A stretch of DNA of 64,000 nt from an uncultured Roseburia sp. (GTDB taxonomy: Bacteria; Bacillota; Clostridia; Lachnospirales; Lachnospiraceae): contig CANSKO010000002.1 in the NCBI GenBank assembly GCA_947647505.1, positions 62,001 through 126,000 of the forward strand, read 5' to 3'. Positions 2,429 through 28,025 of this stretch are shown here, one piece after another. Position numbers and translations under genes: made by a program. The notes below the pieces were generated by a model. The model was not told where the DNA came from. It was given only the letters and a program-made list of their open reading frames with translations, and searched no databases. Within the stretch, counting starts at the first letter, position 1, and each line of letters opens with the position of its first letter.

Positions 2429-2571
2429 AAATGGAGTGTTGTCTGCTGTTTGCGGTAAGGTTTTATGGGAAATGTCTGTCTTTTTCCGGGATTTGTTGTG
2501 TGGCTATGGAGCGCTTTGTTTGTATAAAAGAGAGTAATCCGGAAACAATGAAAACATAAAAATGTTTTATG

Positions 2572-2600: not shown

Positions 2601-2641
2601 ATTATAGAATATAAAACAGAAAAAATACTTGAGGTGAAAAG

Positions 2642-3910: not shown

Positions 3911-4556
3911 AAAAGTACGTGAGATTAAAAAGACGTTTAAAATTTTTTGTGAAGGAGATACGGAATACCTTTATATGGAAGGAATGCGGCGTGCATGCCG
4001 GCTTTCGATTTCTTTAAAGATGGTAAATATGGAAGGTGGGGGCTACAGCAGTTTTTTGGATGACCTTCGCAAAGATGGAAATGCAAATTGTCTGGCGAAG
4101 TTTATAATAATTGATGGAGACAGAGCAGTAAAAGAATATGGAGAGCGGGAAAACTTAAGAAAATTGCTGGAATATTGTAAGATACAAAACGCAAGCGGAA
4201 GAACGCCGCATATTTTAATTATAAATTATCCGGACTTTGAGTACATCGGCTGTCTGCATACTCCAAAATATAAAGGGCAGAATGTGGAGCAATATATTAT
4301 AAAGGAAATGGGATATAAAGACATTGGCGCGTTTAAGTCTGATAAATGCATATATAAAACGCTCAATACAAAAGGAAATTCCTGTGATATTATGCAGGAA
4401 GCGTTGCGGAAAAGAGATTGTTTCGTCAGAAATACATTCAGGATACATACAAACCGCTTTGAAATAAAAGTGTCTACCGGCTATGACTGGGAAAAACTGG
4501 AATGCAGAGGATCGAATTTGGATGAATTGTTTTTTCTGCTGCGTGCATTCTCATGA
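3903..4556 (+). CDS. RloB-domain protein (AbiLii-like), second component of the defence pair
   Basis: This 217-residue protein opens with FKIFCEGDTEYLYMEGMRR, the conserved acidic start of the RloB family, and continues with FIIIDGDRA, giving the acidic residues expected of a Toprim-like or nuclease-like fold. Other family-like blocks are IINYPDFEYIGCLH and the C-terminal GYDWEKLE region. The start is a TTG at 3903 with a GGGAGGA site 7 bases upstream, inside the end of the ATPase gene. In AbiL/RloAB systems the ATPase is thought to control the effector; which step this protein attacks is not known from sequence. Confidence 0.75.
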   Translation: MSRKVREIKKTFKIFCEGDTEYLYMEGMRRACRLSISLKMVNMEGGGYSSFLDDLRKDGNANCLAKFIIIDGDRAVKEYGERENLRKLLEYCKIQNASGRTPHILIINYPDFEYIGCLHTPKYKGQNVEQYIIKEMGYKDIGAFKSDKCIYKTLNTKGNSCDIMQEALRKRDCFVRNTFRIHTNRFEIKVSTGYDWEKLECRGSNLDELFFLLRAFS

Positions 4557-4574
4557 TATGGCGATTCCGAAGGC

Positions 4575-4603
4575 TTGAAAAAGCGGTTAAAGTGTTCTAT
4601 AAT
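4575..4603 (+). promoter_or_regulatory. Sigma-A-type promoter upstream of the small membrane protein and alaS
   Basis: TTGAAA (4575-4580) and a consensus TATAAT (4598-4603) are separated by 17 bases. The promoter lies just past the RloB-like gene and would drive the 50-residue protein gene at 4643 and probably alaS, since no terminator or other promoter is evident between them. Confidence 0.7.
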
Positions 4604-4642
4604 TTAACTATGATTGCGGATGAAAAGAATGGAGGAATGAGC

Positions 4643-4795
4643 ATGGAGTTTTTAGCAAGCATGGCAGGTTATCTGGGACACCTTGTTTTTTATGCGGCGC
4701 TGGCAGTTCTGGGCGTGATTGCAGGAAAGAAATTAAGCGACAATAAAAAGGCAAAGAACGCGTCGAAGCAGTCAGAAGCGAAGACAGAAGAGTAA
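4643..4795 (+). CDS. Small single-span membrane protein, unknown function
   Basis: The protein has 50 residues, beginning MEFLASMAGYLGHLVFYAAL. One transmembrane segment covers about residues 9-30 and is followed by a Lys/Ala/Glu-rich cytoplasmic tail. GGAGGA at 4631-4636 sits 6 bases before this ATG. An in-frame ATG at 4637 directly abuts the site and is less likely. It lies 20 bases before alaS under the same promoter. No family recognised. Confidence 0.55.
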   Translation: MEFLASMAGYLGHLVFYAALAVLGVIAGKKLSDNKKAKNASKQSEAKTEE

Positions 4796-4815
4796 GAAGC
4801 TTGGAGGGTTTTACA

Positions 4816-7526: not shown

Positions 7527-10500
7527 ATGAATAGAATAAAAAAACGGATTCTTTCTTGTACTTTGATTGTTTGCATGACGATGGGGATGTCTGGTTCCCA
7601 TTTGGGGCTTCTGGATGTTTCTGCGGCGCAGAATCTGGAAGACGGACTGATTGGATACTGGAAGTTTGACGGCGATACGAATGAAGAGCAGTTTGAGAAT
7701 TTTGCGCCCGGGCAGAGTTGTACGATAGAGGCAAGCGGAAGCGGGGTAGGAATCAGCCAGGAGGACAGCATATCGGGCGGCGCGGCGCGTTTTGAGAAAA
7801 AGGAGAACTCTTTCCTTAAGTTGAATTTGCTGGCGGCGGATCAGGGGTTAAACGCTGCCGCTGCGGATTTTTCGATTGCGGTCTGGGTAAAAGTTGACAG
7901 CGGCGCGGGCAATAAAGTCACGCTGTTTCAGCAGACGGCGGACGCATCCAATGCAAATGCGCAGGGAAGGACGGTTTTATATTATACGTCGGATAACAAG
8001 TTTGGGACGTATCTTTCCGGCAATGACATCGTGTGCGCGGAAAAAGCTGATCCTGGAAGCTGGAACCACATTGTGTTTACCTGTAATCATGCTACGAAAA
8101 AAGCGCAGTTTTATATCAACGGCAGACTTGCGGAGGAAAAAACGCTGACGGGGGATTTTCTTAACACATCGGTCGATCTGCTGGCAGGCGCGCATAAAAA
8201 TATGGCGGCGGAAAGCGCGATGAAAGGAAATATGGATGAGCTGCGCTATTATGGCAAAGTCATCGATGCAGAAACGGTACAGGCGATTTACCTTGAATAT
8301 GCGGACGGCGTGCAGGTGGAGACGTTAAGAGAGAACCTCAGGCAGAAGGTCGAGGAGGCGAAGCGTCTGACGGGCGGCACACAGGAAGTGGAAGCCGCGC
8401 TTTTGCAGCAGGTGCAGGAGGCGGAAGAGCTGCTTGCAGACGCAAATGCGGACGCAGAGGCGTTGACGGAACGGCTTGCACAGCTGGAAGATGCGATGTC
8501 GGAGTATAAAAAAACAGTGGTGATGGAAATTACAGTGGATACCAGTCAGGAGGTTCGCAGCATTTCCGACGCCATGTTTGGCATCAATCACAGATATCAT
8601 AACGACGGGTACAGCTCCTGGAATTCTGTAAATCAGGAGATCGAGCCAAAATTTCACGAGCTGGTGCAGGAGGCTTCGTTTGGCTCCATTCGATATCCGG
8701 GCGGAACTGTAGCGAATCTGTATGACTGGAAGCGTGCCATTGGTCCTTTCGAACAGAGGAAAAAGACGATTCATGGCAATACGAAAGAGCCAATTACGCC
8801 AAATTTTGGCGTAGACGAGGCGATGCGCTGGATTTATGACGATCTGGACTCCGAAGCCATCTGGGTCTATGCGATGGGACAGGGAAGCGCGCAGGATGCG
8901 GCGGACCTGTTTGAATATCTGAATGCGCCGGCAGACGGCGATCAGACGAATCCCAACGGCGGCGTGGACTGGGCGGAGGTGCGTGCCAAAAACGGGCATC
9001 CGGAGCCTTATGGCGTGACGCGGTTTGAAATTGGAAATGAAATGGGGCTTTGGGGACAGAATTATTGGATGCCGGGCTGCGGCAGCTCCTCGTATGAGAG
9101 TATGGCGGGCGCCTATGCCAACGGCGGCGAAATGAAGTTTGTAAAAGAACGGACCGTTATGGAAGAAGACTGGAGGGACCCTTCCGCCAATTCCGATGGA
9201 ACGGCCGGACAGGTGCGGTATGCCAGATATAAATATGTAAAAGAAGGCAGCGCTTCCGTATACGTGGATAATGAAGAATGGGAAATTGTAGATTCGCTTG
9301 CCGGAGCGGGCAGCGCCAATGTCTGCACATTTGAATATGAGACAGGAAAAATTACGTTTGGAGATGGCACAAACGGAAATATTCCTGCAAGAGGAAAGGC
9401 GATTACCGTATCGTATACGAGCATGCAGGACGGATTTACATCATATTACGACGCGTTAAAGGCGATTGCCGATGAGCTTGGCATGGAAGTGGAAGTGTAT
9501 ACGTGCATGGAGCAGAGAGCGGCCATTAAAGCGTTACAGGAGGCCGGAAACAAATACGACGGCGCAGTCATTCATCCGTACAGTGAAACAAGCGCAAATG
9601 GCGGCAGCTATATCTATATTGATGAAAATGACCCCGAGTTTTATGAAAAGGTGCTGGGCCGTTCGTTAGAGCATAATATGACCCGCGTGCGCGAGCTGAT
9701 CGATCTGATGGGCGAAGGAAAAGTTCCGGTCGTTTCGGAGTTTGGCATATACAGGCATAATTCACAGTTTATCCGCGCGATTGGCCATGCGGTTTATATC
9801 GCGAATGAAATGATCGACTATATCAATTTTGGCACGCCGTATCTGAATAAACACTGTCTGGTGGATTATCCATACGGATCGGACAATCTTGGAACGGGCG
9901 CGCAGTGCGTTATACAGTCTCTGGAAAATGCGGACGGCACGATGGATTTTGTATCGACGCCTTCTGCAAAAGCGTTTTCCATCTTTAACAATATGACGGG
10001 AAACGTACAGGTTGCACAGACGATTACAGGCAATACAACGTATTATACGTTTGAACGAAACGGCAGCTATGAAGTGCCGGTGTTAAAAGCCATTGCTTCC
10101 AAAGATGAAGATGGAAACACATATATTACGGTAATCAATAACCGCAAGAATGACACGGCGAACGTGTCGCTTCGGGTAGACGGCAGAGATCTGACGAACC
10201 AGGAGGCAAACGTATGGTATCTGACTTCGGAAGATGTGGAGGATGAGAACACAAAAGAGAATCCGAATCATGTGGACGTAGTAAAGACGACGGCTGTAAG
10301 CGAAGGGCCCTGTCTGCAATATACGCTTGCGCCGCATTCCATCACTGCATTTCAGATTCCGCCGCAGAAAATGGTGTCCATTACAACGGAAGCGCAGGAA
10401 GGCGGAACGGTAAGCGAAAGCGTGGAAACAGAGGCCGGAAGCAGCGTTACGGTGACGGCGACCCCGAATGAAGGATATGTATTTGCCGGCTGGTATCTGG

Positions 10501-16978: not shown

Positions 16979-17515
16979 ATGGATCACGTAGTGGGGTGGG
17001 TTAAAAATTACAGCATGGTGTTTCTGCTGATGACGGTTTTGACTTCGGTTGCGGCGAAAAAAGAATATCGGAAATACATCCAGTTATTTGTGGAAATTAT
17101 TCTGGTCATCACGCTGGCAGGGCCTTTGCTTGGGGCGCTGGGCAAATCGAACGATTTGTTTGAAAAAATTTCGTATGACAGCTTCTGGCAGGGACTGGAA
17201 GGGATGAAGCTGGATCAGGAGAAGATCGATTTTATACAGGAAGAGGCGTACCTTTCGTATTATGAAAAGGCGATTGCGGCCGATGTGAAGCTGATGGCGG
17301 AGGAGGCCGGATATGCGGCGCTTGCCGTGTCTGTAACGCTAAGCGATGCGTTTGAGGTGGAAGCGCTGGAGCTTGAGGTGGCAAGGCAGGATACAGAAAA
17401 AGTGATTGTAGGAACGGTGGGAGAGAAGCCGGAGAGCGGGGAAATTACGGCATTGCGGGAAAAGATTGCCGCGCATTACCAGGTGGATGCACAGACGGTT
17501 TCCATCGTGGATTAG
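16979..17515 (+). CDS. spoIIIAF: Stage III sporulation protein AF
   Basis: A 178-residue protein with two N-terminal transmembrane segments (about 9-25 and 35-54) followed by a soluble ring-building-motif-type domain, as in SpoIIIAF. The C-terminus is an acidic alpha/beta region ending in DAQTVSIVD. It lies directly after spoIIIAE and before spoIIIAG. Confidence 0.88.
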   Translation: MDHVVGWVKNYSMVFLLMTVLTSVAAKKEYRKYIQLFVEIILVITLAGPLLGALGKSNDLFEKISYDSFWQGLEGMKLDQEKIDFIQEEAYLSYYEKAIAADVKLMAEEAGYAALAVSVTLSDAFEVEALELEVARQDTEKVIVGTVGEKPESGEITALREKIAAHYQVDAQTVSIVD

Positions 17516-17529
17516 TTTGGGAGGCATGC

Positions 17530-18132
17530 GTGAAGCTGAAGGATTTTTTTCAAAACAGGTCATGGAAGAAATGGGAAAAAAGCCAGTGGAGCATTCTGAT
17601 TCTGGTAGGCATGCTTCTGATGGTGATTGCAATTCCGACAAAGGACAAGGAAAAGGAAGTGCAGAAATTGCAGGAGGAGGTCGGGGAGGATGCCGCGCGC
17701 GCCGCGGAAGTGGAAAAAGAGGACTATGTGCGAAAGCTGGAACAGCGGCTTTGTGATACGCTCTCAAGACTGGAGGGGGCCGGCGCGGTGGAGGTGATGA
17801 TTACGCTGGAAGATTCCGGCGAGAGCATTGTGGAAAAAGACACTTCGAATGAAACGTCAACGCTGCAGGAGGCGGACAGCGCGGGAGGAAGCCGGTCGGA
17901 AAAAAACGCGCAGACGGCGCGGTCAACGGTTTACCGCGAAGAAAGCAGCGAAAAAACGCCTTTCATAGGAAAAGAAATGACGCCGAAAGTCGCCGGCGTA
18001 CTGGTTGTTGCGCAGGGAGGCGATCAGACTGCGGTAAAGCAAAATATTTCTGAAGCAGTGATGGCATTATTCCAAATTGACGTGAATAGAATAAAAGTAG
18101 TTAAGATGAATATGCAGGAGGAAGAATATTGA
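17530..18132 (+). CDS. spoIIIAG: Stage III sporulation protein AG
   Basis: A 200-residue protein with one transmembrane segment (about 19-36), a coiled and charged stretch, and a C-terminal ring-building domain (GAGAVEVMITLEDSGE, then VAGVLVVAQGGDQTAVK). SpoIIIAG forms the large ring in the intermembrane space. The start is GTG at 17530 behind GGGAGGC. It overlaps spoIIIAH by 4 bases. Confidence 0.92.
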   Translation: MKLKDFFQNRSWKKWEKSQWSILILVGMLLMVIAIPTKDKEKEVQKLQEEVGEDAARAAEVEKEDYVRKLEQRLCDTLSRLEGAGAVEVMITLEDSGESIVEKDTSNETSTLQEADSAGGSRSEKNAQTARSTVYREESSEKTPFIGKEMTPKVAGVLVVAQGGDQTAVKQNISEAVMALFQIDVNRIKVVKMNMQEEEY

Positions 18133-18977
18133 AAAAGAAATTGAAGAAGAATCAAATCATCATTACAGCGCTGGCGCTTATGATTGCGGTTGCCGGATAT
18201 GTCAGCTATACAAGAAGCAACTTAGACGGCGCAGCTACGGAAACAAGCGCGGATATTTCGGAGGATTCTTATGAAATCTCCGATAATCCAATCCTGGAGG
18301 GCGATATTTTTACGGATACGGGAGATGGGAACCCGGATGTGGCGCAGGCGGAGAACGGCGGTACGGACGTTGCTTTAGACGAAGACGCGGCGGAGGCCGG
18401 AGCGGACGCGGCGCAAAGCGGAGCGGAATTAAATCCGGGAGAAGCCGTGCTTACAAGCTCGACGGTAAACAATGTGGATTTTGCGGCTGAGATGAAGCTG
18501 TCCAGGGAACAGGTGCGCGCCAAAAATAAAGAAACGCTGCTTGGCATCGTCAACAGCACGACGCTGACGGATGAGCAGAAGCAGGCGGCCGTCGATCAGA
18601 TGATTGCGTTGACGGATGTGGCGGAACGGGAAGCGGCGGCGGAAATGCTTTTAGAGGCCAAAGGCTTTACGGACGTTGTAGTCAGCATTACGGAAGATAT
18701 GGTAGACGTCGTTTTGAATATGGGAGACGTTACCGATGCAAAACGGGCGCAGATTGAGGATATTGTGAAGCGCAAGACGAATATCAGCGCGGAGCACATT
18801 GTGATCACGCCGATTGATACGACGGCGCAGACAGAGAGTGGGACGCAGACGGAAAGTGAAACGCAGCAGGATAGCGGGACGCAGACGGAAGGAAGCGAGA
18901 CGGCGGGAACGTCCGGCACGGCAGAAATGACAGAGTCGACAGAATCGGAGAATACGGAGGGGACTTCTTCCAAGTAA
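18129..18977 (+). CDS. spoIIIAH: Stage III sporulation protein AH
   Basis: A 282-residue protein with an N-terminal transmembrane segment (about 9-25), an acidic linker, and the YscJ/FliF-like ring domain (about 120-220; AAAEMLLEAKGFTDVVVSI, then IEDIVKRKTNISAEHIVITP). SpoIIIAH faces the forespore protein SpoIIQ. A Thr/Glu/Ser/Gln-rich low-complexity tail of about 50 residues built from TESGTQTESE-like units follows the domain and looks like a lineage-specific extension. Last gene of the operon. Confidence 0.92.
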   Translation: MKKKLKKNQIIITALALMIAVAGYVSYTRSNLDGAATETSADISEDSYEISDNPILEGDIFTDTGDGNPDVAQAENGGTDVALDEDAAEAGADAAQSGAELNPGEAVLTSSTVNNVDFAAEMKLSREQVRAKNKETLLGIVNSTTLTDEQKQAAVDQMIALTDVAEREAAAEMLLEAKGFTDVVVSITEDMVDVVLNMGDVTDAKRAQIEDIVKRKTNISAEHIVITPIDTTAQTESGTQTESETQQDSGTQTEGSETAGTSGTAEMTESTESENTEGTSSK

Positions 18978-19027: not shown

Positions 19028-19454
19028 TTATTTGCAACCGCAGTTTTTGTCGATAACGGGATTGCATGCGTAGAAGTTTTTGGAGTCGAGGCGTTCCTGG
19101 ATCAGCCGCAGCGCTTCGCCAAACCTCTGGAAGTGCACAATTTCCCTTGCACGCAGGAAGCGGATCGGGTCAATGACGTCAGGATCTTTGACAACGCGCA
19201 GGATGTTGTCGTAGGTGCTTCTGGCTTTCTGTTCGGCTGCCATATCCTCCACAATATCCGTGATCGGATCGCCTTTTACCTGGAATTCACAGGCATTTTG
19301 CGGAACGCCGCCGGCTGCCTGCGGCCATACGCCAAGGGTGTGGTCAATATAATATTCACCAAAACCGGATTCTTTGATTTCTTCCGGCGTTAAGTTGCGG
19401 GTGAGCTGGTGCACGATGGTGGCTACCATTTCGAAGTGGGCCATTTCTTCTGTG
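19028..19454 (-). CDS. cotJC: cotJC 3' part (C-terminal segment of a manganese-catalase-like spore coat protein)
   Basis: From TEEMAHFEMVATIVHQL to the stop, this encodes the C-terminal 141 residues of CotJC, including the ExxH metal ligands (EEMAH) and the later EDMAAEQ and REIVHFQRF ligand regions. The catalase N-terminus is missing here: upstream of LGTEEM the frame runs into element sequence with an unrelated chimeric extension (SNRNITDAS and beyond). The missing N-terminus lies at 27295-27479 on the same strand. Joining 27295 to 19454 yields 612 bases, exactly 204 codons with stop, and a perfect CotJC junction (VLTDIG-TEEMAH). CotJC is a coat protein of the ferritin-like manganese catalase family. 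Confidence 0.93.
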
Positions 19455-19480
19455 CCCAGAGAAGCATCGGTAATGTTCCG
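19455..19480. repeat. Left end of the cotJC element: inverted arm plus CC core (att site)
   Basis: The central CC is at 19455-19456 and the 24-bp arm occupies 19457-19480. Read on the minus strand it begins CGGAACATT and ends CTTCTCTG. It matches the right-end arm (27271-27294) at 20 of 24 positions in inverted orientation. This is the expected layout of a serine-recombinase attachment half-site. Confidence 0.8.
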
Positions 19481-19561
19481 GTTACTGTATTTTGGGACGG
19501 GCATGATACGGTGGGATTTCCGATACATAGCTTTTCGACGTTTGAGAGAATAAAGAAGCAT

Positions 19562-19608
19562 GTTGTAACACTTTATCTTACAACTGAAATATGTTATACT
19601 CATTTCAG
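19562..19608 (+). promoter_or_regulatory. Promoter and inverted repeats upstream of the Rrf2 regulator
   Basis: GTTGTAA at 19562-19568 and TTACAAC at 19578-19584 form an inverted repeat with a 9-base spacer. A second pair, CTGAAAT (19584-19590) and ATTTCAG (19602-19608), brackets a -10 TATACT (19595-19600). The -35 region is poor. The TTGTAA/TTACAA half-sites recur upstream of the next gene (20181-20226), so autoregulation by the Rrf2 protein is plausible. Confidence 0.5.
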
Positions 19609-19635
19609 AAATATGGAACAAGGAGAATTTAAAAT

Positions 19636-20079
19636 ATGCAGATTTCAAGTCGGTTTACCGTCGCAGTTCATATATTTGCCTGTATAGCTGCATTTGAAAA
19701 AGACTATAAATTAACAAGTGATTTTTTGGCAGGGAGCGTTAATGTGAATCCGGTCGTCATTCGCAGAATCCTGCAGCAGTTAAAGGCGGCAAATCTCATA
19801 ACCGTATCAAGAGGCGGCGGTGGCGCGTCTATTGTAAAGCCCTTGAATGAAATCACCCTTTTTGATGTGTATAATGCTGTCGAATGTGTGGAGAATGGAA
19901 AGTTATTTCATTTTCACGAAAATCCGAATCCCAAATGCCCTGTTGGGAGAAATATTCACAATGCTTTAGATGATAAATTACATCGTATTCAACAGGCAAT
20001 GGAGAATGAAATGTGCAAAATAACAATCTTTGATATAGTAAAAGACACACAGGCTTATATAGAGCAAGAAAATAAATGA
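19636..20079 (+). CDS. Rrf2-family transcriptional regulator
   Basis: A 147-residue protein beginning MQISSRFTVAVHIFACIAAF. It has the Rrf2 winged helix (TSDFLAGSVNVNPVVIRRILQQL, wing ISVSRGGGG-like as ITVSRGGGGASIV) and the typical LFDVYNAVE block. The effector region has one cysteine in PNPKCPVG rather than the three of IscR/NsrR, so Fe-S binding of the classical kind is doubtful. It resembles the YwnA-type subgroup. It is the first gene inside the element and is followed by a terminator and then the regulated-looking operon. An AAGGAGAA site precedes the ATG. Confidence 0.85.
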   Translation: MQISSRFTVAVHIFACIAAFEKDYKLTSDFLAGSVNVNPVVIRRILQQLKAANLITVSRGGGGASIVKPLNEITLFDVYNAVECVENGKLFHFHENPNPKCPVGRNIHNALDDKLHRIQQAMENEMCKITIFDIVKDTQAYIEQENK

Positions 20080-20101
20080 TGTGAATATAGGAACAGAGTC
20101 A

Positions 20102-20136
20102 GCCATCCCTTACCATTCATTTTGGGGTGGTTTTTT
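20102..20136 (+). terminator. Terminator after the Rrf2 gene
   Basis: CCATCCC (20103-20109) can pair with GGGGTGG (20124-20130), followed by six T. It separates the regulator from the downstream operon. Confidence 0.65.
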
Positions 20137-20174
20137 ATACGTAAAATAGTTTTAAGAAAACCTCAATGTAACTA

Positions 20175-20226
20175 TTGATATTACAACAAAGGCATGTTAC
20201 AATTGTTGTAATTGAGATAGTTACAA
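20175..20226 (+). promoter_or_regulatory. Promoter with overlapping Rrf2-type operators for the redox/transport operon
   Basis: TTGATA (20175-20180), a 17-base spacer and TACAAT (20198-20203) make a good promoter. A palindrome TTACAA-TTG-TTGTAA lies at 20197-20211, directly over the -10, with further TTACAA half-sites at 20181-20186 and 20221-20226. The same half-site occurs before the Rrf2 gene. Repression by that Rrf2 protein is inferred. Confidence 0.65.
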
Positions 20227-20254
20227 CAATAATTTTTCTTATGGAGGAATGGAC

Positions 20255-20857
20255 ATGGATGCTCAGAGATGCCTGGAAATTTTACGGGAAGTAAAGGATG
20301 TTGCGTTTGCTACGGTGGATGAAAACGGACTTCCTCAAATACGTATGATTGATGTGATGATCGTTGAAAAGGAAAAAATGTATTTTTGTACAGCAAGAGG
20401 AAAAAACTTTTACTGTCAGGTTGTCAAAAGCGGTCAGGTTGCGGTTACAGGAATGAATCAAGAATTTCAGATGGTACGGTTAAATGGCACGGCGAAAAAA
20501 CTGGAGGAGCAAAGAAAATGGATTGACAGAATTTTTAAAGAAAATCCGTCGATGAATGCAGTTTATCCAGAGGAAAGCAGATATGTGCTGGAGGCGTTCT
20601 GCATTGAGGATGGCTCTGTTGAGTTTTTTGACTTAGGAAAAGGGCAGATTGTCAGAGAAAGCTTCACGTTCGGAAATGCTGCGGCAAAAAAATCAGGATT
20701 TCACATTTCAGATGGCTGTATTCATTGCGGAAAGTGCGAGCGTATTTGCCCACAGAAATGTATAGCGGATGATAAAATCAATCAAAATCATTGCCTGCAT
20801 TGTGGGCTGTGCGTCGAGGAATGCCCTGTCGGAGCCATTAAAAAAAGAGGAGAATAA
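20255..20857 (+). CDS. Pyridoxamine-5'-phosphate-oxidase-like FMN-barrel protein fused to a 2[4Fe-4S] ferredoxin domain
   Basis: A 200-residue protein. Residues about 1-125 form an FMN-binding split barrel (VAFATVDENGLPQIRMID, then MYFCTARGKNFYCQV). Residues about 145-200 carry two clusters, CIHCGKCERICPQKC and CLHCGLCVEECPVG. It is probably an electron-transfer flavoprotein or reductase; the substrate is unknown. GGAGGA at 20243-20248 fits the ATG at 20255; an in-frame ATG at 20249 abuts the site. It is followed after 2 bases by the transporter gene and so belongs to the same operon under the palindrome-covered promoter. Confidence 0.85.
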   Translation: MDAQRCLEILREVKDVAFATVDENGLPQIRMIDVMIVEKEKMYFCTARGKNFYCQVVKSGQVAVTGMNQEFQMVRLNGTAKKLEEQRKWIDRIFKENPSMNAVYPEESRYVLEAFCIEDGSVEFFDLGKGQIVRESFTFGNAAAKKSGFHISDGCIHCGKCERICPQKCIADDKINQNHCLHCGLCVEECPVGAIKKRGE

Positions 20858-20859
20858 AG

Positions 20860-22398
20860 ATGTTGCAGAATATGTGGTTACTTTTTATAGAAAGAAAAGA
20901 GTTCTTTTTGGATTTGCTGTGGGAGCATTTAGAGATTTCTCTGCTTGCGATTATAATAGCGGTTTTATTCGGTGGCATGATCGGAATTTTAATCAGCGAA
21001 TTTCAAAAAACAGCAAAACTTACTTTGGGCGCAATCAACTTCCTGTATACCATACCGTCAATTTCTATGCTTGGATTTTTAATTCCGTTTTCGGGCATTG
21101 GAAATGCCACCGCTGTCATTGCTTTGACCGTTTATGCCCTTTTGCCGATGGTAAGGAATACGCACACGGGAATGACAAATGTGGATCCTGCTATTTTAGA
21201 AGCGGCAAAAGGCATGGGAAGCACAAGAATGCAAATACTTTTCAAAATTAAGCTTCCGCTTGCGATGCCTGTTATTTTGTCCGGGATTCGTAATATGGTT
21301 ACAATGACAATCGCCCTTGCAGGCATTGCTTCATTCATTGGCGCAGGTGGCCTGGGCGTTGTGATTTATAGAGGCATCACCACAAATAATGCCGCAATGA
21401 CCATGGCCGGCAGCTTGCTCATTGCCCTGCTTGCTTTGGCAACGGATTTCTTGCTTGGATTTATGGAAAAGCGAATTGGAAAGCGCAGCGTAAAAGCGAA
21501 AAAGGCAAACCGCGTCATGGCAATTGCGGCTCTTTTGATTTGCCTGTGCGTGATTGTTGGGATGCTGCTCCCAGTGAATAGGCGGGATACCCTGCATATT
21601 GCGACAAAGCCGATGACAGAGCAATATGTGTTGGGTGAGATGTTGGACATTCTGATTGAGCAGGATACCGATTTGAATGTAGAGCTAACGCAAGGCGTAG
21701 GCGGGGGGACGTCAAATATTCAGCCTGCAATGGAAAGCGGTGAATTTGACATCTATCCCGAATATACGGGGACAGGTTGGAATATGGTTTTGAAAAAAGA
21801 GGGCCTGTATACCGAAGAGTTATTTGAGGCAATGCAGGACGAGTATAAAAATTCACTCAATCTGCAATGGGTTGGGATGTACGGCTTCAATAATACCTAT
21901 GGCTTGGCTGTTCGTCGTGAAATTGCTGAAACATACCATATCAAAACGTATTCAGACTTGAAATCCGTATCGGATCAGCTTATATTCGGCGCGGAATATG
22001 ATTTTTTTGAGCGTGAGGACGGCTATGATGCGCTTTGTGACGCCTATGGCTTTGCATTCAAAAGAACGATGGATATGGATATTGGATTGAAATACCAGGC
22101 AATCAATCAGGGGAAAATTGATGTGATGACTATTTTCACCACGGACGGGCAGTTAAGCGTTTCCGATGTTGCTGTTTTGGAAGATGATGAGAATTTCTAT
22201 CCTTCTTATTTATGCGGGAATGTGATCCGTTCTGAAATTTTGGAACAGCATCCCGAATTGATGGAGCTGTTCAACAAGCTTACGGATGTCATTTCCGATG
22301 AAGACATGGCGCAAATGAACTACGCTGTCGAGAGTGAGGGGAAAGGGACGCGAGAAGTAGCCGAAGCATTTTTACAAAATGCGGGCCTTTTGAAATGA
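20860..22398 (+). CDS. ABC transporter permease fused to its substrate-binding domain (OpuB/EgtU type)
   Basis: A 512-residue protein. The N-terminal half (about 1-225) is an OpuBB-like permease with about six transmembrane segments and the EAAKGMGSTRMQILFKIKLP coupling motif. The C-terminal half (about 240-512) is an OpuBC/ProX-like binding domain (IATKPMTEQYVLGEMLDILI, EYTGTGW, and a late YPSYLCGNVIR). Fused permease-binding proteins of this type transport glycine betaine, choline, carnitine or, in EgtU, ergothioneine; the ligand cannot be decided here. The neighbouring redox gene makes a thiol or betaine-type ligand attractive, but this is inference. It lies 10 bases before the ATPase gene. 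Confidence 0.88.
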   Translation: MLQNMWLLFIERKEFFLDLLWEHLEISLLAIIIAVLFGGMIGILISEFQKTAKLTLGAINFLYTIPSISMLGFLIPFSGIGNATAVIALTVYALLPMVRNTHTGMTNVDPAILEAAKGMGSTRMQILFKIKLPLAMPVILSGIRNMVTMTIALAGIASFIGAGGLGVVIYRGITTNNAAMTMAGSLLIALLALATDFLLGFMEKRIGKRSVKAKKANRVMAIAALLICLCVIVGMLLPVNRRDTLHIATKPMTEQYVLGEMLDILIEQDTDLNVELTQGVGGGTSNIQPAMESGEFDIYPEYTGTGWNMVLKKEGLYTEELFEAMQDEYKNSLNLQWVGMYGFNNTYGLAVRREIAETYHIKTYSDLKSVSDQLIFGAEYDFFEREDGYDALCDAYGFAFKRTMDMDIGLKYQAINQGKIDVMTIFTTDGQLSVSDVAVLEDDENFYPSYLCGNVIRSEILEQHPELMELFNKLTDVISDEDMAQMNYAVESEGKGTREVAEAFLQNAGLLK

Positions 22399-22408
22399 GG
22401 TGCAGAAA

Positions 22409-23233
22409 ATGAGCATAGCGATTGAATTTAAGAATATTAAAAAAGCTTACGGGAACAAAGTGATACTGGATGACTTTAACCTTTCTGTTGCACAGGGTGA
22501 GTTTGTCACTGTCATCGGCTCTTCAGGATGCGGAAAAACGACAGCCTTAAAGATGGTAAACGGGCTGATCGAGCCGACGAGCGGTGATATTTTTGTAGAT
22601 GGAGAAAATATTCGAGAGAAAAACATGACGGAATTCCGTCGTAATATTGGATATGCAATTCAAGGCAGCGTTTTATTTCCTCACATGACAGTGGAGCAGA
22701 ACGTAGCTTATGTGCCTAATCTTCTCAATAAGAAGGACAAGGAAAAGACGAAGCTTGCAGTTTCTAAGTGGATGAAGCTCGTTGGCCTTGATGACGAATT
22801 AAAAGGCCGTTATCCTTCTGAACTGTCAGGCGGGCAGCAGCAAAGAGTTGGCATAGCGAGAGCGTTGGCGGCGTCCCCTAATATTCTTCTGATGGATGAG
22901 CCTTTCGGCGCGGTTGATGAAATTACTCGTGGGCAGCTGCAAAATGAATTGAAGCAAATCCATGAAAAAACAGGCATTACCATCTTGTTTGTGACGCATG
23001 ATATTTCTGAAGCGTTAAAGCTTGGCACAAAAGCGCTTGTTATGGATCAAGGGCAAATACAGCAGTATGGAAAAGCAGATGAGCTTTTGCGCAATCCCAA
23101 AACGGATTTTGTAAAGCAGTTGGTAGAGAAAGAGAGGCGTATCTGCCATTTGCCTGAGGAACGCCTAAAAAATTGTGAATACAGTTGGGCAGGCTGCTCT
23201 GCGGCAGCGGAACATGATGTCATGCCATTTTAG
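22409..23233 (+). CDS. ABC transporter ATP-binding protein (OpuA/OpuB type)
   Basis: A 274-residue ATPase. Walker A GSSGCGKTTALK is followed by the Q-loop YAIQGSVLFP, signature LSGGQQQRVGIARAL, Walker B ILLMDEPFGAVD and switch His FVTHDISEA. It lacks the C-terminal CBS pair of OpuAA-type osmoregulated ATPases and instead has a short Cys-containing tail (RICHLPEERLKNCEYSWAGC). It energises the fused permease/binding protein encoded 10 bases upstream. ATG at 22409 is chosen with GAGG upstream; GTG at 22400 is in frame. Confidence 0.9.
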   Translation: MSIAIEFKNIKKAYGNKVILDDFNLSVAQGEFVTVIGSSGCGKTTALKMVNGLIEPTSGDIFVDGENIREKNMTEFRRNIGYAIQGSVLFPHMTVEQNVAYVPNLLNKKDKEKTKLAVSKWMKLVGLDDELKGRYPSELSGGQQQRVGIARALAASPNILLMDEPFGAVDEITRGQLQNELKQIHEKTGITILFVTHDISEALKLGTKALVMDQGQIQQYGKADELLRNPKTDFVKQLVEKERRICHLPEERLKNCEYSWAGCSAAAEHDVMPF

Positions 23234-23253
23234 CCGGATGCATTCAGCGACCG

Positions 23254-23292
23254 CCCTCCGACTTCGCTTGTTGAAGTTTGGAGGGATTTTTA
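23254..23292 (+). terminator. Terminator of the element's transport operon
   Basis: CCCTCC-N-ACTTC pairs with GAAGT-TT-GGAGGG around a short loop, followed by a T-rich run (ATTTTTATTT). Confidence 0.8.
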
Positions 23293-23453
23293 TTTCATTA
23301 TTTGTTTTTGAGCGCTCTGCGCTTCGTTAAGCCCCTGTGCCGTATATCCGAAAGGTCGGAAATCGCCCCGGAAAACTGCCTATTTCCACGCTCTCAAAAT
23401 TGTGGTAAAATAAGAAAATAAGGGTTGTTTTGCAGATGAAAGGGATAAAACGT

Positions 23454-23924
23454 ATGTACAAACACTGCGACTCAGATGATTGTTATATCAGCCTCCATGA
23501 CTGCCGCGCTGAAAAAATGAGTTTTGATAAAGGAATTTTATCTTTTACTTTCCCTGACGGATTCTGGATAACGCAACAGCATTCTTTGAACAGTTCGGAG
23601 AATACCGTCTTAACAAGTTCTTCTCAAGTGGATTTTACAATTATTGGTGAAGAGATTTGCGGAATTGAAATTTCTATATTTAGGAAGAAAAGAAGTGGAA
23701 CGGTAATTCGAGAGGACTGGGAACCGCTAAATTTTATAAATGCTGTGAATGCAGGAGATTTTGAAATAGAATTTATTACGCAATATAAGAGTTATCAATC
23801 ATTTCTTTTCAAGTGTTGGGTATGGTTTAACAAAGAACCATATCATTCAGAATGTGAAATAATTTTACATAGTGGAAGGGTATTGTACCGTTGGAATGAT
23901 TTACGCTACGATCGTTGCTGGTAA
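23454..23924 (+). CDS. Hypothetical protein, unknown family
   Basis: A 156-residue protein (MYKHCDSDDCYISLHDCRAE...) without a signal peptide or membrane segment. It is beta-rich by eye, with aromatic-rich stretches (KCWVWFNKEPYHSEC) and an acidic-to-neutral character. Size and composition recall small immunity-type or cytosolic beta-sandwich proteins, but no family is recognised. The ATG at 23454 follows AAGGGAT; in-frame ATGs at 23433 and 23436 lie further upstream. Confidence 0.55.
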   Translation: MYKHCDSDDCYISLHDCRAEKMSFDKGILSFTFPDGFWITQQHSLNSSENTVLTSSSQVDFTIIGEEICGIEISIFRKKRSGTVIREDWEPLNFINAVNAGDFEIEFITQYKSYQSFLFKCWVWFNKEPYHSECEIILHSGRVLYRWNDLRYDRCW

Positions 23925-23967
23925 GACATTACTATATTGATTCATTCAGCAGGCAAGGAGGGAGAGC

Positions 23968-24206
23968 ATGGAGCTATCCATACAAGAACGATTGAAAGAC
24001 CTGCATGTGGAGCGTGGCTGACACTGGAACAGTTTGCGGAGCAGACCCGCAGTTCAGGCAGCTTATCGCCGCCCATCTTGACGAGGACGAGTTTTGCCGC
24101 CATGTGATACAGCGGGATATAGACGGCGTAGGAAGTGGCTGAAAAAGATTGCGGAGAAGTCGGACTTGCTGAAAAATCCTAACCCACGGCGGGGACGGAA
24201 GCAGAG
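23968..24206 (+). pseudogene. Decayed XRE-type HTH gene and mobile-element remnant
   Basis: ATG at 23968 behind GGAGGGAG opens MELSIQERLKDLHVERG, typical of an XRE regulator, then stops. Skipping one base continues LTLEQFAEQT. Further on, QLIAAHLDEDEFCRHVIQRD is readable in another frame, followed by a Lys/Arg-rich tail. These are fragments of genes common on Clostridial mobile elements, joined by deletions and frameshifts. Confidence 0.6.
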
Positions 24207-24235
24207 AATAATAAGTAAAATATGGAGAAAAATCA

Positions 24236-24727
24236 ATGGGAATGATTGCAAATTATCAGTCAACTACAGACATTGAATTAGAAAAATTTATGTGCCTTGC
24301 TGATGTGGAAGAAGCGCAGGAAAATGAGGACTTAGAAATTTGTGATATAGATAAAATGTGGGACGCACTTCATTTTTTGCTGACAGGAAAATCTGCCAGC
24401 GAACCGATTGAAGATAATTTAATCAGCGAAGCGATTATAGGACAGTTTAATATTTCCGGAGAAGAAATTGAAGAATTTATATCTGGAACGAAAACCGATA
24501 GAGTGAAAAAAATTGCAAAGGCGTTGCAGGAACTTGATTTTGAAACATATATTGATAAATTTGATATAAGTGCGTTTCGTCAAAACGATATTTACCCTGA
24601 TATTTGGGGATACGAAGAGGAAGCTGATGAAATTAAAGATGATTTAAGAACCTCATTTGAAAGTTTGAAAAGGTTTTATGAGAAAATGGCAGAACAAGAA
24701 AGAGCCGTATTGGTGTCAATTTATTAA
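24236..24727 (+). CDS. DUF1877 (YfbM-like) family protein
   Basis: A 163-residue acidic protein starting MGMIANYQSTTDIELEKFM and containing ICDIDKMWDALHFLLTG, the hallmark of DUF1877, plus a C-terminal YFDSLKRFYEKMAE-like helix (here FESLKRFYEKMAEQ). The function of the family is unknown. It is cytoplasmic. A GGAGA site precedes the ATG. DUF1877 genes are often carried on accessory islands. Confidence 0.85.
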   Translation: MGMIANYQSTTDIELEKFMCLADVEEAQENEDLEICDIDKMWDALHFLLTGKSASEPIEDNLISEAIIGQFNISGEEIEEFISGTKTDRVKKIAKALQELDFETYIDKFDISAFRQNDIYPDIWGYEEEADEIKDDLRTSFESLKRFYEKMAEQERAVLVSIY

Positions 24728-24899
24728 TTATCTGAGAGTATAAAAAATTCTGTAAAAACTGAATCGAAGTATTCTGAAAAGGTCTTCTATGATAAAATAA
24801 AAAATCATAGGAGGCCTTAAATTATGGCAAACAGAAAAAAAGAAGCCCAATTATCGCAACGGGGCAAAGCCCAAGCGCGTCCGCAGCAGATAGGGTGAG

Positions 24900-25065
24900 T
24901 TTGAAGGCTTTGGGCTTGGCATTCTTTCTGGAATTCATTGCGCCATCGACGGACGCTCTCTTTGGAGATGCCATATTCCGTGGTGATGCTGTTGATTGTT
25001 CGTCCTTCTTCCAGACGGAGACGGACGATCTTCTTTTTAAATTCGGATGTGTATTTTTGCGGCAT
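24900..25065 (-). pseudogene. Truncated IS3-type transposase OrfA fragment
   Basis: The minus strand encodes MPQKYTSEFKKKIVRLRLEE followed by the HTH segment INSITTEYGISKESVRRW and RNEFQKECQ, the N-terminus of an IS3-family OrfA. After about 50 residues the frame diverges into unrelated sequence and no OrfB is present. It is a remnant of an insertion sequence. From 24728 to about 24899 I see no intact gene, only a possible short frame at 24823 and an imperfect hairpin at about 24779-24820. Confidence 0.7.
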
Positions 25066-25229
25066 AATAAGCGCCTCTTTTCCTTGTAGATTGATTATAT
25101 CTTATTAGCCATTTCTGTTACAACTTTACTTTATCACAACAACTGCCACAGTTTTACCAAAAAGGACTAACCATCCCGTTATATCGTACAAACCCTAACG
25201 AATATCATATAGCGAGGTGGTGTTGATGA

Positions 25230-25430
25230 TTGAAGTGTCGTGAGTTTGTCTATGTCGGAGAGTCTGCTCCACAAATCACAGAACAGGAACACACAGCGTT
25301 TTATCTGCAATTTCAAAAGTCAATACTTGCTTCTCTGAAAAAAAGAGAACTATTGACACACTCACAGTATGAGCGTTGTATCGAGGAAATAGAAAAGCAA
25401 TACAGAAAGAACAACCGCAGCCAAGCCTAA
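25230..25430 (+). CDS. Small protein encoded before the recombinase
   Basis: A frame of 66 residues contains PQITEQEHTAFYLQFQKSIL and ELLTHSQYERCIEEIEKQY. Small SHOCT-like proteins of this type commonly precede serine recombinases in Clostridial elements. GAGGTGG at 25214-25220 is the likely ribosome-binding site. Start choice is uncertain: TTG at 25230 is used, and a nearby ATG at 25226 runs into a stop after five codons, so a small frameshift near the start is possible. Confidence 0.55.
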   Translation: MKCREFVYVGESAPQITEQEHTAFYLQFQKSILASLKKRELLTHSQYERCIEEIEKQYRKNNRSQA

Positions 25431-25581
25431 ACGCTTGGCTCTTTACATATGTTTCGTGAACCATCGCTACTCAATCAAGAATAAAAATGTACGATTTCCA
25501 AATTTGCGCATTCGACAACATACCTCTATGAAACTATACTTAAAATACGGCAAGGCTTTTGTCGGGAAAGGAGCTTTTCTT

Positions 25582-27330
25582 ATGTCAATAGACAAATACG
25601 AAACCCTCAATCAAGAGAGAAAAATACAGAATATGAAAAAGAGAGTTGCCGCTTACTGCCGCGTCTCCACGGACAATGACGACCAGGCAAATTCATTTGA
25701 AAGCCAGCAGCGGTATTTCCGCCAGTATATCGAACGTAAACCCGATTGGGAGCTTTATGCCATATTTGCTGATGAGGGTATCTCTGGAACGAACACAAAA
25801 AAGAGAAAAGAATTTAACCGCATGATTGCATGTGCCAAAAACGGCGATTTCGATTTGATTATCACAAAGGAAATCTCCCGTTTTGCGAGAAATACCCTTG
25901 ACAGCATATTCTACACCCGTGACCTCAAAAAGCACGGAGTAGGCGTTATCTTTCTAAACGACAACATCAACACCCTGGACGGCGATGCAGAGCTTCGCCT
26001 TGCCATTATGTCCTCTATCGCACAGGAGGAAAGCCGCAAGACTTCTGAGCGTGTCAAATGGGGACAGAAACGCCAGATGGAGCGAGGCGTTGTGTTCGGG
26101 CGCAGTATGCTCGGCTATGATGTAAAAGGCGGCAAAATGACCATCAATGAAGATGGGGCTAAAATCGTCCGTCTTATCTTTCGTAAGTTCGTGGACGAGG
26201 GCAAAGGCACTCATGTTATCGCCCGTGAGCTTCGGGAGGAGGGCATAAGTCCCATGCGTGTGAAAGAATGGAGCAATACCGTCATTTTACGAGTGATACG
26301 CAATGAAAAATACTGCGGCGACTTAGTACAGAAGAAAACCTATACGCCAGACTTCCTATCCCATGAAAAGAAAGTAAACCTCGGGCAGGAGGAATTTGTC
26401 ATCCTCAAAGACCACCACGAGCCGATCATCTCCCGTGAGCTTTTCGACAAGGCAAACCGCATTTTGGATGCAAAATCGCTTTCGCAGGAGGGCAAGGCAA
26501 AACACAGCAACCGCTATCCGTTCTCTGGAAAAATCAAATGCGGCAGATGCGGGGCAAGCTATGTTGCCCGATACAAAACCCGAAAGGATGGAAGCCAGTA
26601 TAAGGCATGGCGTTGTTTTGAGGGCGCAAAGCATGGAGGCCCCCACATCGACAAAGCAGGAAACCAAGTGGGCTGCTCTGGAACAAGCATCCGCAACGAA
26701 GAAGCCATCCACATTATGTATCTTGTCTGCAAGCAGCTCACCATTGACCGCCAGAAAATAGCGGATAACTTAATTAAAACGATTCAAAAGGTGATTTCAC
26801 TGGATATGACTGGTGCAGATACAAATACTCTGGAAGATAAAATTGAAGCGGCACAGAAAAAACGTACTGATTTGATTGACCTTTACACAAGCGGCGATAT
26901 TGACCGTGATGAATTTACGGCTCTTAGGGCAAAATACGATGCTGAAATCAACAGCTTGAAATCTATGGTGGAAAGCATGGAAAAACAGCAGGTTGTAATT
27001 GCGAAGCAAGAGGAACGGATGGAGGATATTAAAAACGCCGTGGATGAGCTTATCGAAGGCATTGAGTATGAGGATGAATTTTACACACAGCTACTTGACA
27101 AAATGGTGATTAACGACAGAGAGAACATAGATGTATATCTGAATTTACTTCCCCTTAAATGGAGCTATACGGTTGCGGGCAGCATAAACTGTCCACAGGG
27201 CGGAAATTGTCTAAAGGACAGACAGTTGCTAAAAAAAGCGTTAGCCTCTGAAAACGCCCTGCAAGCACAGCGGAACATTTCAGAGGCTTCACTGCCGATA
27301 TCCGTTAATACGCCCATGACCTCGCGGTAA
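25582..27330 (+). CDS. Large serine recombinase of the cotJC element
   Basis: 582 residues. The resolvase domain has the catalytic serine in AAYCRVSTDND, with FADEGISGTN and EISRFARNT. A recombinase domain (about 185-290) follows, then a zinc ribbon (IKCGRCGASYVARYK, with WRCFEG and VGCSGTSI) and a coiled-coil region (about 410-490). This is the SpoIVCA/CcrB/TnpX-type class that excises skin-like elements. ATG at 25582 follows AAAGGAG; an internal ATG at 25633 (MKKRVAAYCRVSTD) is possible. The frame crosses the right att site and ends inside cotJC, so its last ten residues come from host sequence. In an excised circle it would run on to a stop at 19551-19553. Confidence 0.93.
   Translation: MSIDKYETLNQERKIQNMKKRVAAYCRVSTDNDDQANSFESQQRYFRQYIERKPDWELYAIFADEGISGTNTKKRKEFNRMIACAKNGDFDLIITKEISRFARNTLDSIFYTRDLKKHGVGVIFLNDNINTLDGDAELRLAIMSSIAQEESRKTSERVKWGQKRQMERGVVFGRSMLGYDVKGGKMTINEDGAKIVRLIFRKFVDEGKGTHVIARELREEGISPMRVKEWSNTVILRVIRNEKYCGDLVQKKTYTPDFLSHEKKVNLGQEEFVILKDHHEPIISRELFDKANRILDAKSLSQEGKAKHSNRYPFSGKIKCGRCGASYVARYKTRKDGSQYKAWRCFEGAKHGGPHIDKAGNQVGCSGTSIRNEEAIHIMYLVCKQLTIDRQKIADNLIKTIQKVISLDMTGADTNTLEDKIEAAQKKRTDLIDLYTSGDIDRDEFTALRAKYDAEINSLKSMVESMEKQQVVIAKQEERMEDIKNAVDELIEGIEYEDEFYTQLLDKMVINDRENIDVYLNLLPLKWSYTVAGSINCPQGGNCLKDRQLLKKALASENALQAQRNISEASLPISVNTPMTSR
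27244..27287. repeat. Inverted repeat near the right end of the element
   Basis: GCCTCTGAAA (27244-27253) and TTTCAGAGGC (27278-27287) are perfect 10-bp inverted arms separated by 24 bases. They lie inside the 3' end of the recombinase gene and overlap the right att arm. They could be accessory recombinase sites or RNA structure. Confidence 0.55.
27271..27296. repeat. Right end of the cotJC element: inverted arm plus CC core (att site)
   Basis: The 24-bp arm at 27271-27294 begins CGGAACATT and ends CTTCACTG, followed by CC at 27295-27296. It is the inverted counterpart of the left arm (19457-19480), with 20 of 24 bases identical. cotJC coding sequence begins immediately beyond. Confidence 0.8.
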
Positions 27331-27479
27331 GGCATGGAATATCTCTGCGACAGATACCGCAGGCTGGCGGAAATCTCTCCATCCGGACCACCGTACTGAC
27401 TCATAATAAACTTCGCGATTTTCGGATTCGTTTCCTTAATATTGACCGGATATTCCAGACGCTTTTCATAATTCCACAT
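27295..27479 (-). CDS. cotJC: cotJC 5' part (N-terminal segment)
   Basis: ATG at 27479 (MWNYEKRLEYPVNIKE...) behind GGAGG encodes the first 61 codons of CotJC and two bases of codon 62. They include YGGPDGEISASLRYLSQRYS with Glu35, the first manganese ligand of this family. The native sequence ends at VLTDIG; beyond it the frame enters the element (SEASEMFRCA...) and stops after 104 residues in all. The other ligands (Glu65, His68 and later) are on the distal part at 19028-19454, so neither fragment can form the di-metal site. The ATG overlaps the cotJB stop (TGATG). Confidence 0.93.
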
Positions 27480-27748
27480 CAGCAGTAACCTCCTTCCCAG
27501 GGCCACGGTTCCAAAGCCCAGCGCCAGTAGTCGCAGTTTTCTATCGCATCCAGCGTCAAAGGCGCGTAGTTTGCAGAATAAAGCGCCACGGCGCGCCTGC
27601 GCTCTTCATTATAATGGTTAAAAAAAGCAAGCGCATCCGCATCATTGGGATGCGTGTCCAGATATAGTGTGATTTCCGTTATTGCAAAGCTGACCTCGTC
27701 AATCCACTGCATCAGCTGACGTCGGTCCATTGTATTTTGCATCAACAC
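27479..27748 (-). CDS. cotJB: Spore coat protein CotJB
   Basis: An 89-residue protein with LMQWIDEVSFAITEITLYLD, then DADALAFFNHYNEERRRA and a C-terminal NCDYWRWALEPWPWEGGYC, the conserved CotJB layout. GTG at 27748 is taken because GGAGGG is at the right distance; the ATG at 27742 overlapping the cotJA stop is an alternative. CotJB is assembled into the spore coat together with CotJC and CotJA. It is the middle gene of the operon. Confidence 0.92.
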   Translation of the reverse strand: MLMQNTMDRRQLMQWIDEVSFAITEITLYLDTHPNDADALAFFNHYNEERRRAVALYSANYAPLTLDAIENCDYWRWALEPWPWEGGYC

Positions 27749-27966
27749 GAACGCCCTCCTTTCCCTCCGGTAAATGGTTTATTCAGCTCCGGGAAAATTG
27801 TTCCGTATTGCAGGGCTTCCTCCAATTCGTAAATGCGCTTGAACTGCTGCATTGGGACATATGCCATGGCAAGCGGGAAATGCTCCATAGACCAGTCCCG
27901 TTCCGGCGGCATGACAGGAGGAGGGCAGGCGTTTCTTCTGCATCTCGGCTGACTGCAAGTATTCAT
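27742..27966 (-). CDS. cotJA: Spore coat associated protein CotJA
   Basis: A 74-residue Pro- and Cys-containing protein with FPLAMAYVPMQQFKRIYELE and LQYGTIFPELNKPF, diagnostic of CotJA. It is first in the cotJABC operon, with a GGAG site before the ATG and a sigma-E-type promoter upstream. It overlaps the cotJB start. Confidence 0.92.
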   Translation of the reverse strand: MNTCSQPRCRRNACPPPVMPPERDWSMEHFPLAMAYVPMQQFKRIYELEEALQYGTIFPELNKPFTGGKGGRSC

Positions 27967-27996
27967 AATACGTCTCCTTTTTTCGTTTATATCAAT

Positions 27997-28025
27997 AGCG
28001 TATGCATCGTTTTCTGAAAAGTTAC
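27997..28025 (-). promoter_or_regulatory. Sigma-E-like promoter of cotJABC
   Basis: On the minus strand GTAACTTT (28018-28025), a 13-base spacer and CATACGCT (27997-28004) match the mother-cell sigma-E pattern, in the same geometry as the spoIIIA promoter in this window. The -10 also fits the sigma-K form CATANNNT with an AC 16 bases upstream. cotJ is sigma-E dependent in Bacillus. Confidence 0.6.

Follow-up and report, generated by a model that had tools for sequence, protein, structure and literature searches.

In a 64,000-nucleotide stretch of DNA from an uncultured Roseburia sp. of the Lachnospiraceae (GenBank assembly GCA_947647505.1, contig CANSKO010000002.1, forward-strand positions 62,001 to 126,000; hereafter the window), the spore coat gene cotJC lies in two pieces on the same strand, separated by an element that carries its own large serine recombinase (Table 1). 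A first-pass annotation of the window had placed the halves 7,840 bp apart and proposed a single skin-like element, and its coordinates were borne out. Residues 1 to 61 are encoded at 27479-27297, codon 62 starts at 27296, and a GG common to both ends of the element (CC on the plus strand, 27296-27295 and 19456-19455) allows the pieces to be joined into a 612-base frame of 203 amino acids (aa) with Gly62 restored and no internal stop. When the whole draft genome (86.8% complete, 40 contigs) was searched with the Mn_catalase profile (284 positions), two matches were obtained, at profile positions 1-65 and 61-197, which are the two cotJC pieces; no second cotJC copy was found in this assembly, a possibility that the annotation had raised. 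The joined frame is 89-95% identical to the uninterrupted cotJC of three relatives of the same genus (loci L035, L036, and L038), showing that both halves come from one gene and not from two. The Mn catalase motifs named in that annotation, which we take to be metal ligands in CotJC, align with those of solved Mn catalase relatives.

The split of cotJC is real and not a chance event, since dozens of genomes show this break at this codon, and its recurrence well beyond the window genome was confirmed. Across carriers, the gene was found in two to four pieces, with up to three elements per gene, broken at four sites: A near residue 30, B at Gly62 as in the window, C near residue 136, and D near residue 175. 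The proposal of a single element thus gave way to one of many elements in cotJC.

Table 1. Features of the cotJC locus in the window, with the basis of each assignment (ORF, open reading frame)
Feature	Position	Strand	Basis or remark
cotJC 5' piece	27295..27479	-	residues 1-61 plus first two bases of codon 62; Mn-catalase match, junction join
cotJC 3' piece	19028..19454	-	last base of codon 62 to stop; Mn-catalase match, junction join
Intervening element	19455..27294		7,840 bp; shared GG at both ends, whole genes in relatives
attL (site B), GATATCGG / CAGTGAAGCCTCTGAAATGTTCC	27271..27315	-	aligned with other N-half loci of site B
attR (site B), GGAACATTACCGATGCTTCTCTGG / GCACAGAAGAA	19440..19480	-	aligned with C-half loci of site B
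Cargo: Rrf2-family regulator	19636..20079	+	Pfam
Cargo: PNPOx-like domain with 4Fe-4S ferredoxin domain	20249..20857	+	Pfam
Cargo: glycine betaine/choline-type ABC permease plus binding protein	20860..22398	+	family searches
Cargo: ProV-like ABC ATPase	22400..23233	+	family searches
Cargo: 164-aa ORF, no family	23430..23924	+	family searches
Cargo: DUF1877 protein	24236..24727	+	Pfam
Transposase N-terminal fragment (HTH_Tnp_1)	24817..25065	-	Pfam
66-aa ORF upstream of recombinase	25230..25430	+	kept in relatives
Sigma-A-like promoter, TCGACA-17-TATACT	25512..25540	+	before recombinase
Large serine recombinase, 583 aa	25579..27330	+	Resolvase, Recombinase, and zinc ribbon, three Pfam domains over cut-off
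cotJB	27479..27748	-	CotJB Pfam match; directly upstream of cotJC
cotJA	27742..27966	-	ORF before cotJB, same position matched in relatives; named by position, no family search
Sigma-K-like motif, AC-N16-CATANNNTA	27996..28022	-	upstream of cotJA
spoIIIAF/AG-like genes and one further ORF	16979..18977	+	beside cotJC, opposite side from cotJA/cotJB

The element, its recombinase, and its attachment sites

Judged by its structure, the element belongs with the skin-type intervening elements and would work like one: the gene parts lie in frame on the same strand, the element brings its own recombinase, and a short shared core restores the gene in silico. The likeness to skin drawn by the first-pass annotation held for this structure and failed for content, since a Pfam search of the element ORFs found no prophage-like content and no phage-type gene besides the recombinase. 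The recognized cargo comprises transporter, regulator, and ferredoxin genes, and two ORFs had no recognized function in family searches. With the genes listed from the cotJC 3' side, the recombinase is last and runs into the cotJC 5' piece.

The serine recombinase claimed for the element was verified by its Resolvase, Recombinase, and zinc ribbon domains. It has the three domains and the length (>450 aa) of a large serine recombinase, matches the phrog_95 integrase family, and is kept in relatives; residue S30 (alignment numbering) is invariant in 10 of 10 recombinases, and its YCRVS motif is presumably the site of the catalytic serine in the N-terminal domain. The only full-length match of its kind in the window genome was the recombinase itself, with a further, weaker PF07508 match (226-aa frame) on another contig. 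A phage or plasmid origin was considered and not adopted, the best records being 46-47% identical; the viral collection includes ten relatives. Because the last 12 codons of the recombinase gene, stop included, are cotJC DNA (27295-27330), the C terminus of the protein should differ between the integrated and circular forms of the element.

The inner arm of the attachment (att) site attR mirrors that of attL in the window element, and the inner attL sequence GGTAGAGAAGCCCCTGAAATGTTCC and the inner attR sequence GGAACATTTCCGATGCTTCTCTGG, each with variants, are conserved across most site-B loci. Combined, the two inner arms form a near inverted repeat around the GG that sits in the Gly62 codon, and a near inverted repeat around the core is what is expected of a serine integrase attP. 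Recombination of attL with attR in silico restores cotJC exactly.

Upstream of the recombinase, a 66-aa ORF was present in 72 of 82 loci, including L089 with its 3.0-kb element, and was 45-97% identical in 23 other loci. The ORF is preceded by a conserved block with no recognized motif. It had no family match; structure prediction gave a confident two-helix model, a helical hairpin, with no PDB match at E ≤ 0.001, and the structure therefore gives no function. We regard it as a candidate directionality factor.

The sigma-K-like motif upstream of cotJA, AC-N16-CATANNNTA, is of the sigma-K consensus type and is the sole exact match in the 64-kb window, with 0.82 expected by chance; CATANNNT lies 36-39 bases before cotJA in nine of nine loci of the genus. 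On the other side, the genes adjoining the cotJC 3' end look by their matches like a sporulation neighborhood, with a spoIIIAG-like gene (E = 1.3e-36) and a spoIIIAF-like gene (E = 8e-4), both under their family cut-offs, and a third ORF with no match. The recombinase promoter resembles the sigma-A type, its region is conserved among the aligned loci listed, and a search for control of the recombinase by a sporulation sigma factor found none.

Recurrence of the breaks and state of the pieces

Within the genus, 15 genomes including that of the window were examined, and breaks were placed by tblastn on the fetched stretches; the Mn catalase family was matched in 14 of the 15. Site B was split in seven genomes (G000, G001, G002, G003, G006, G008, and G009), site A in G001 and G009, site C in G009, G011, and G013, and site D in G003 and G013, while a piece in G008 likewise begins at A. 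In the stretches searched, the residues of G009 before A and after C and the part of G011 after C were not found. Uninterrupted cotJC was present in G004 (two copies), G005, G007, and G012. Weak matches in G014 and on a second G013 contig represent a distant relative (22-23% identity), and G011 has a weak additional Mn catalase match. As at B, the junctions at A, C, and D recur, and all four sites lie within a few codons of the motifs aligned with Mn catalase relatives. Site B itself is used by elements with other recombinases or arrangements: the 523-aa serine recombinase of locus L166 did not match the window type at the cut-off applied, and in L167 and L168 related recombinases sit on the 3' side of cotJC, oriented differently in the two loci. 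The three further sites are used by other elements.

The frequency of the split was determined in a draw of 120 genomes from the family, one per genus as listed, each at least 90% complete except for the window genome. CotJC was present in 75, and in 28 of these, with rows judged by reading, it was split into complementary pieces: at A in 8, at B in 10, at C in 3, at D in 1, at A and B in 1, at A and C in 2, at A and D in 1, and in 2 at B, accompanied by a further partial piece or lacking one end. Five ambiguous genomes (G165, G099, G131, G091, and the frameshift-like G081) were excluded from the split count. Another full-length CotJC match was found in 6 of the 28 split genomes and none in the other 22. 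As controls in the same draw, pyrH gave a single full-length match in 118 of 118 genomes with no split, and gpr, encoding a forespore protease, was present in 82, including all 28 with split cotJC, again with no split; two genomes had two adjacent same-frame gpr matches, and five aligned only to about position 240 of 306, with open frames of 292-320 aa. With the window genome omitted, cotJC was split in 27 of 74 genomes versus 0 of 117 for pyrH (Fisher p = 2e-13). The sigK gene gave a single unbroken match, from about position 24 to 226 of 227, in each of the 15 genomes of the genus; seven of these matches exceeded the family cut-off.

A scan of genome contigs for the recombinase kept 80 loci of 156 relatives. 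A CotJC piece was present in 74 of these, and in 65 the cotJC 5' piece was convergent with the recombinase and <200 bases from its end; among the other 15, the 5' piece was elsewhere in the locus in 5, only another piece was present in 4, and none in 6. When whole genomes were searched for 39 drawn from the 80 loci, all had CotJC matches and 37, judged by reading, had at least two partial pieces, the exceptions being G030, with a full copy plus a short piece, and G051, with a single piece; five of the 39 additionally had a full-length CotJC, 63-66% identical. Four pieces lie in order on one contig in G050, and G034, which contains the locus of Eubacterium plexicaudatum ASF492, has three pieces on one 6.3-Mb contig, split at B and C by elements of about 57 and 3 kb. 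G089, split at A, is an assembly of one contig. Since the record titles of these loci include Ruminococcus and Oscillospiraceae, the spread of split cotJC seems to go beyond one family.

Codon tables covered 48 genes split at site B: 7 from the genus, 28 from the 39 recombinase-locus genomes, 5 from the family sample, and 8 from further recombinase loci with both halves. None of the 48 has a stop inside a piece; an apparent stop at codon 43 in G024 arose where the alignment of another piece had been extended with gaps, outside the gene piece itself. Twenty more stretches hold pieces that are open from their break sites, among them those beginning at residue 133 or 172; some of the pieces are about 30 codons long. 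For pairs with a synonymous divergence (dS) of 0.1-1.2, the median ratio of nonsynonymous (dN) to synonymous divergence in split genes was 0.18 for the N half (43 pairs) and 0.155 for the C half (32 pairs), close to the 0.146 (8 pairs) and 0.167 (2 pairs) of the few uninterrupted pairs. Among split genomes of the genus, C-half dN/dS was about 0.004-0.044 where dS could be estimated. As a rough estimate, had the pieces drifted neutrally over a time equal to half the dS of the nearest recombinase (capped at 1), 42 genes would be expected to hold about 164 nonsense changes, or 16 at a tenth of the time; 0 were seen, with unsampled hosts shortening the true time.

Some side observations concern individual carriers. 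The uninterrupted copy of G005 (L035) has a TAG at codon 9, set beside the 48 split genes without an internal stop. G102 carries two cotJC 3' parts whose starts are 3.5 kb apart on one contig (C68:14660-15091 and 18200-18631), as if two elements or a duplicated end were present. At locus L023 of G013, the cargo of the C-site element (2451-5693) includes alanine-racemase-family and D-Ala-D-Ala-ligase-family ORFs, a pair that we assume to be of the kind found near van genes, and the sole ORF of the D-site insert (7921-9288) encodes a chemoreceptor-like MCP/CZB protein. One AbiEii-type and two ParE-type ORFs (L022 3410-4351; L151 2892-3206; L032 4268-4609) represent toxin-antitoxin-type cargo, which perhaps stabilizes the elements.

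Proposed mother-cell excision and its alternatives

We favor, as reasonably likely, a reading in which mobile elements use cotJC, a gene of the mother cell only, as a safe harbor and are excised in the mother cell during sporulation, a step that we infer from the arrangement of the locus. During spore formation, cotJC would then probably have to be rebuilt through excision of DNA. The large serine recombinase would recognize a DNA site in the Gly62 region of cotJC, and vegetative cells and the forespore would keep the element in place. It would be excised as a circle in the mother cell by the recombinase acting with a directionality factor, perhaps the 66-aa protein, after which cotJABC, read from a sigma-K-type promoter, would yield whole CotJC; where a gene holds two or three elements, as many excisions would have to precede the coat protein. 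As the mother cell is bound to die, excision would cost neither the element nor the host lineage anything, and such a harbor would explain the frequent hits on cotJC. The absence of stops, the unsplit controls, the exact junction, and the sigma-K-like motif were counted in favor of this reading.

Several observations weigh against it. The sigma-K-like motif was not at the same place in 24 loci of other genera (33 loci examined in all, many upstream regions of the 24 looking mis-anchored), a sigma-K-type pattern with a 16-base spacer had no match inside the element, and the recombinase promoter looks sigma-A-type, with 3 promoter-like sites found versus 1.8 expected in shuffles. A search of 397 family genomes for the attP circle junction with up to 3 mismatches gave 7 matches, none of them attP, all carrying cotJC-side sequence after the core in an attR-like manner; the exact attP pattern had no match in the viral collection, and neither an excised circle nor a rejoined cotJC copy was seen with these patterns, which are limited to the commoner att variants. 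The choice of the 66-aa ORF as directionality factor is a guess. The D-site element of L023, 1.5 kb in length, has no recombinase ORF and could not excise alone; it may leave only when excised in trans, or not at all. N-half dN/dS in the genus ranged from 0.005 to 0.29, and most genus dS values exceed 1, which makes these ratios weak. Moreover, many pairs of hosts with saturated cotJC have a recombinase dS of 0.01-0.2, and the dN values of recombinase and cotJC were uncorrelated (r = -0.03 and 0.06, 921 pairs). Since the recombinase is so similar across hosts with divergent cotJC, insertions can be of recent date, and the selection that left the halves open and their dN/dS low may partly predate insertion.

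Vertical inheritance of the recombinase with cotJC was ruled out, as neither dS nor dN tracks between them; recombinase dN is well below dS. Several other genomes match the window block of 66-aa ORF and recombinase at about 89-94% identity along 1.6-2.4 kb, and the window cargo upstream of the 66-aa ORF had no comparable match in the loci fetched (at least 88% identity, 150 bases). By these comparisons, the elements are horizontally mobile modules. Over 436 bases, the 3' side of cotJC and its attR flank share 97% identity with G003, another genome of the genus. To this genome, the window C half (19113-19548) is near-identical, with a dS of 0.09, and the N half (27295-27479) has a dS of 0.69; the two halves of the window cotJC would therefore have different recent histories.

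The main rival, which we hold to be unlikely but worth serious weight, is plain site-specific insertion: cotJC would merely be an integration site, a dispensable coat gene inactivated by the element, with excision serving transfer and the split a short-lived state at the tips that reverts or dies out. The rapid spread of the recombinase module between hosts fits such a picture, as do the sigma-A-like recombinase promoter, the second, full-length CotJC in 6 of 28 split genomes, and the lack of any junction in searches with the att patterns. Dispensability also accords with Clostridioides difficile, in which mutants of two cotJC-type genes had reduced catalase activity and no significant spore-coat defect in the part of PMC11222575 consulted. 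Short-lived inactivation is hard to reconcile, however, with a split in 27 of 74 genomes and yet no stop inside a piece in any of 48 split genes, with multi-element genes that are open in the pieces examined, and with vegetative (pyrH) and forespore (gpr) controls that are unsplit in the sample.

An adaptive switch, in which excision times CotJC production to the benefit of the host, we regard as improbable. Skin in sigK has been argued to benefit its host by timing excision, and such a role for cotJC would fit with how strongly the recombinase and the 66-aa ORF are retained and with the presence of several elements in one gene; close relatives with uninterrupted cotJC do not need one, though, and carriage is patchy and moves horizontally. 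Even with a 40-contig draft for the window genome, an artifact of misassembly or a pair of separate, unrelated genes is scarcely credible and is refuted by the relatives, as dozens of independent genomes have their break at one and the same codon, with conserved att sequence, and all pieces lie on one long contig in some of them (G034 and G089).

Returning to mother-cell excision, a wider proposition seems to us evenly balanced, namely that gut Lachnospiraceae and related Clostridia have in cotJC a bacterial gene in pieces. In this view, different recombinase elements have repeatedly inserted at four conserved codons near the metal-ligand motifs, and the coat protein would have to await up to three excisions in the dying mother cell; the system would then be more akin to programmed DNA elimination in ciliates than to single-element skin. 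Altogether, the interpretation of the first-pass annotation is partly supported.

If true, DNA rearrangement in sporulation would not be an oddity confined to a few model strains: of the genera with CotJC sampled from one large family, more than a third would show it, in a structural coat gene and in some cases with several excisions for a single gene. Annotations of many commensals in which cotJC can look missing or truncated would thereby find an explanation as well. The four target sites in one gene offer a natural set for studying how elements settle in mother-cell-only genes, and several carriers seem, by their strain names, to be cultured isolates and hence testable, among them the altered-Schaedler-flora strain E. 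plexicaudatum ASF492, Roseburia sp. 1XD42-69, and Lachnospiraceae bacterium A2.

Comparison with known systems

As the first-pass annotation had supposed, no described cotJC-splitting element was found in the open PubMed Central (PMC) literature, preprints lying outside the search. XisF, the recombinase of the fdxN element, excises an element from a gene during development; the window recombinase is a distant serine-recombinase relative of it, scoring 117.7 bits against 375 (NF041201), far under the cut-off. Skin splits sigK in Bacillus subtilis and C. difficile, and its excision restores the gene, as described in PMC5025042 and PMC10747680, by means of a serine recombinase (excerpts of PMC5595907). 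Like skin, the cotJC element splits a sporulation gene and carries a serine recombinase. Unlike skin, its target is a coat structural gene and not a sigma factor, with sigK unbroken in this genus; the window element has no recognized phage-type cargo; and its recombinase is convergent to cotJC, whereas spoIVCA is said in a passage of PMC10747680 to be similarly oriented.

The cotJC element resembles gin, which interrupts gerE in Bacillus cereus ATCC10987, in being a non-prophage element with a serine recombinase; according to the cited portion of PMC5595907, gin excision needs a second factor besides the recombinase, and in SP-beta and C. difficile skin the directionality factor is under sporulation control. 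It differs from gin, given there as 28.6 kb with three recombinase genes, in having 7.8 kb and one recombinase, and in cotJC different elements occupy four sites. SP-beta in spsM, vfbin in spoVFB, and yin in yabG likewise lie inside sporulation genes and are excised as circles or during sporulation, as reported in parts of PMC4191935 and PMC10747680. As described there, each of these is one element at one gene site, and yin is called unique in the section of PMC10747680 that treats it; the cotJC pattern, unlike theirs, extends over many genera with up to three elements per gene.

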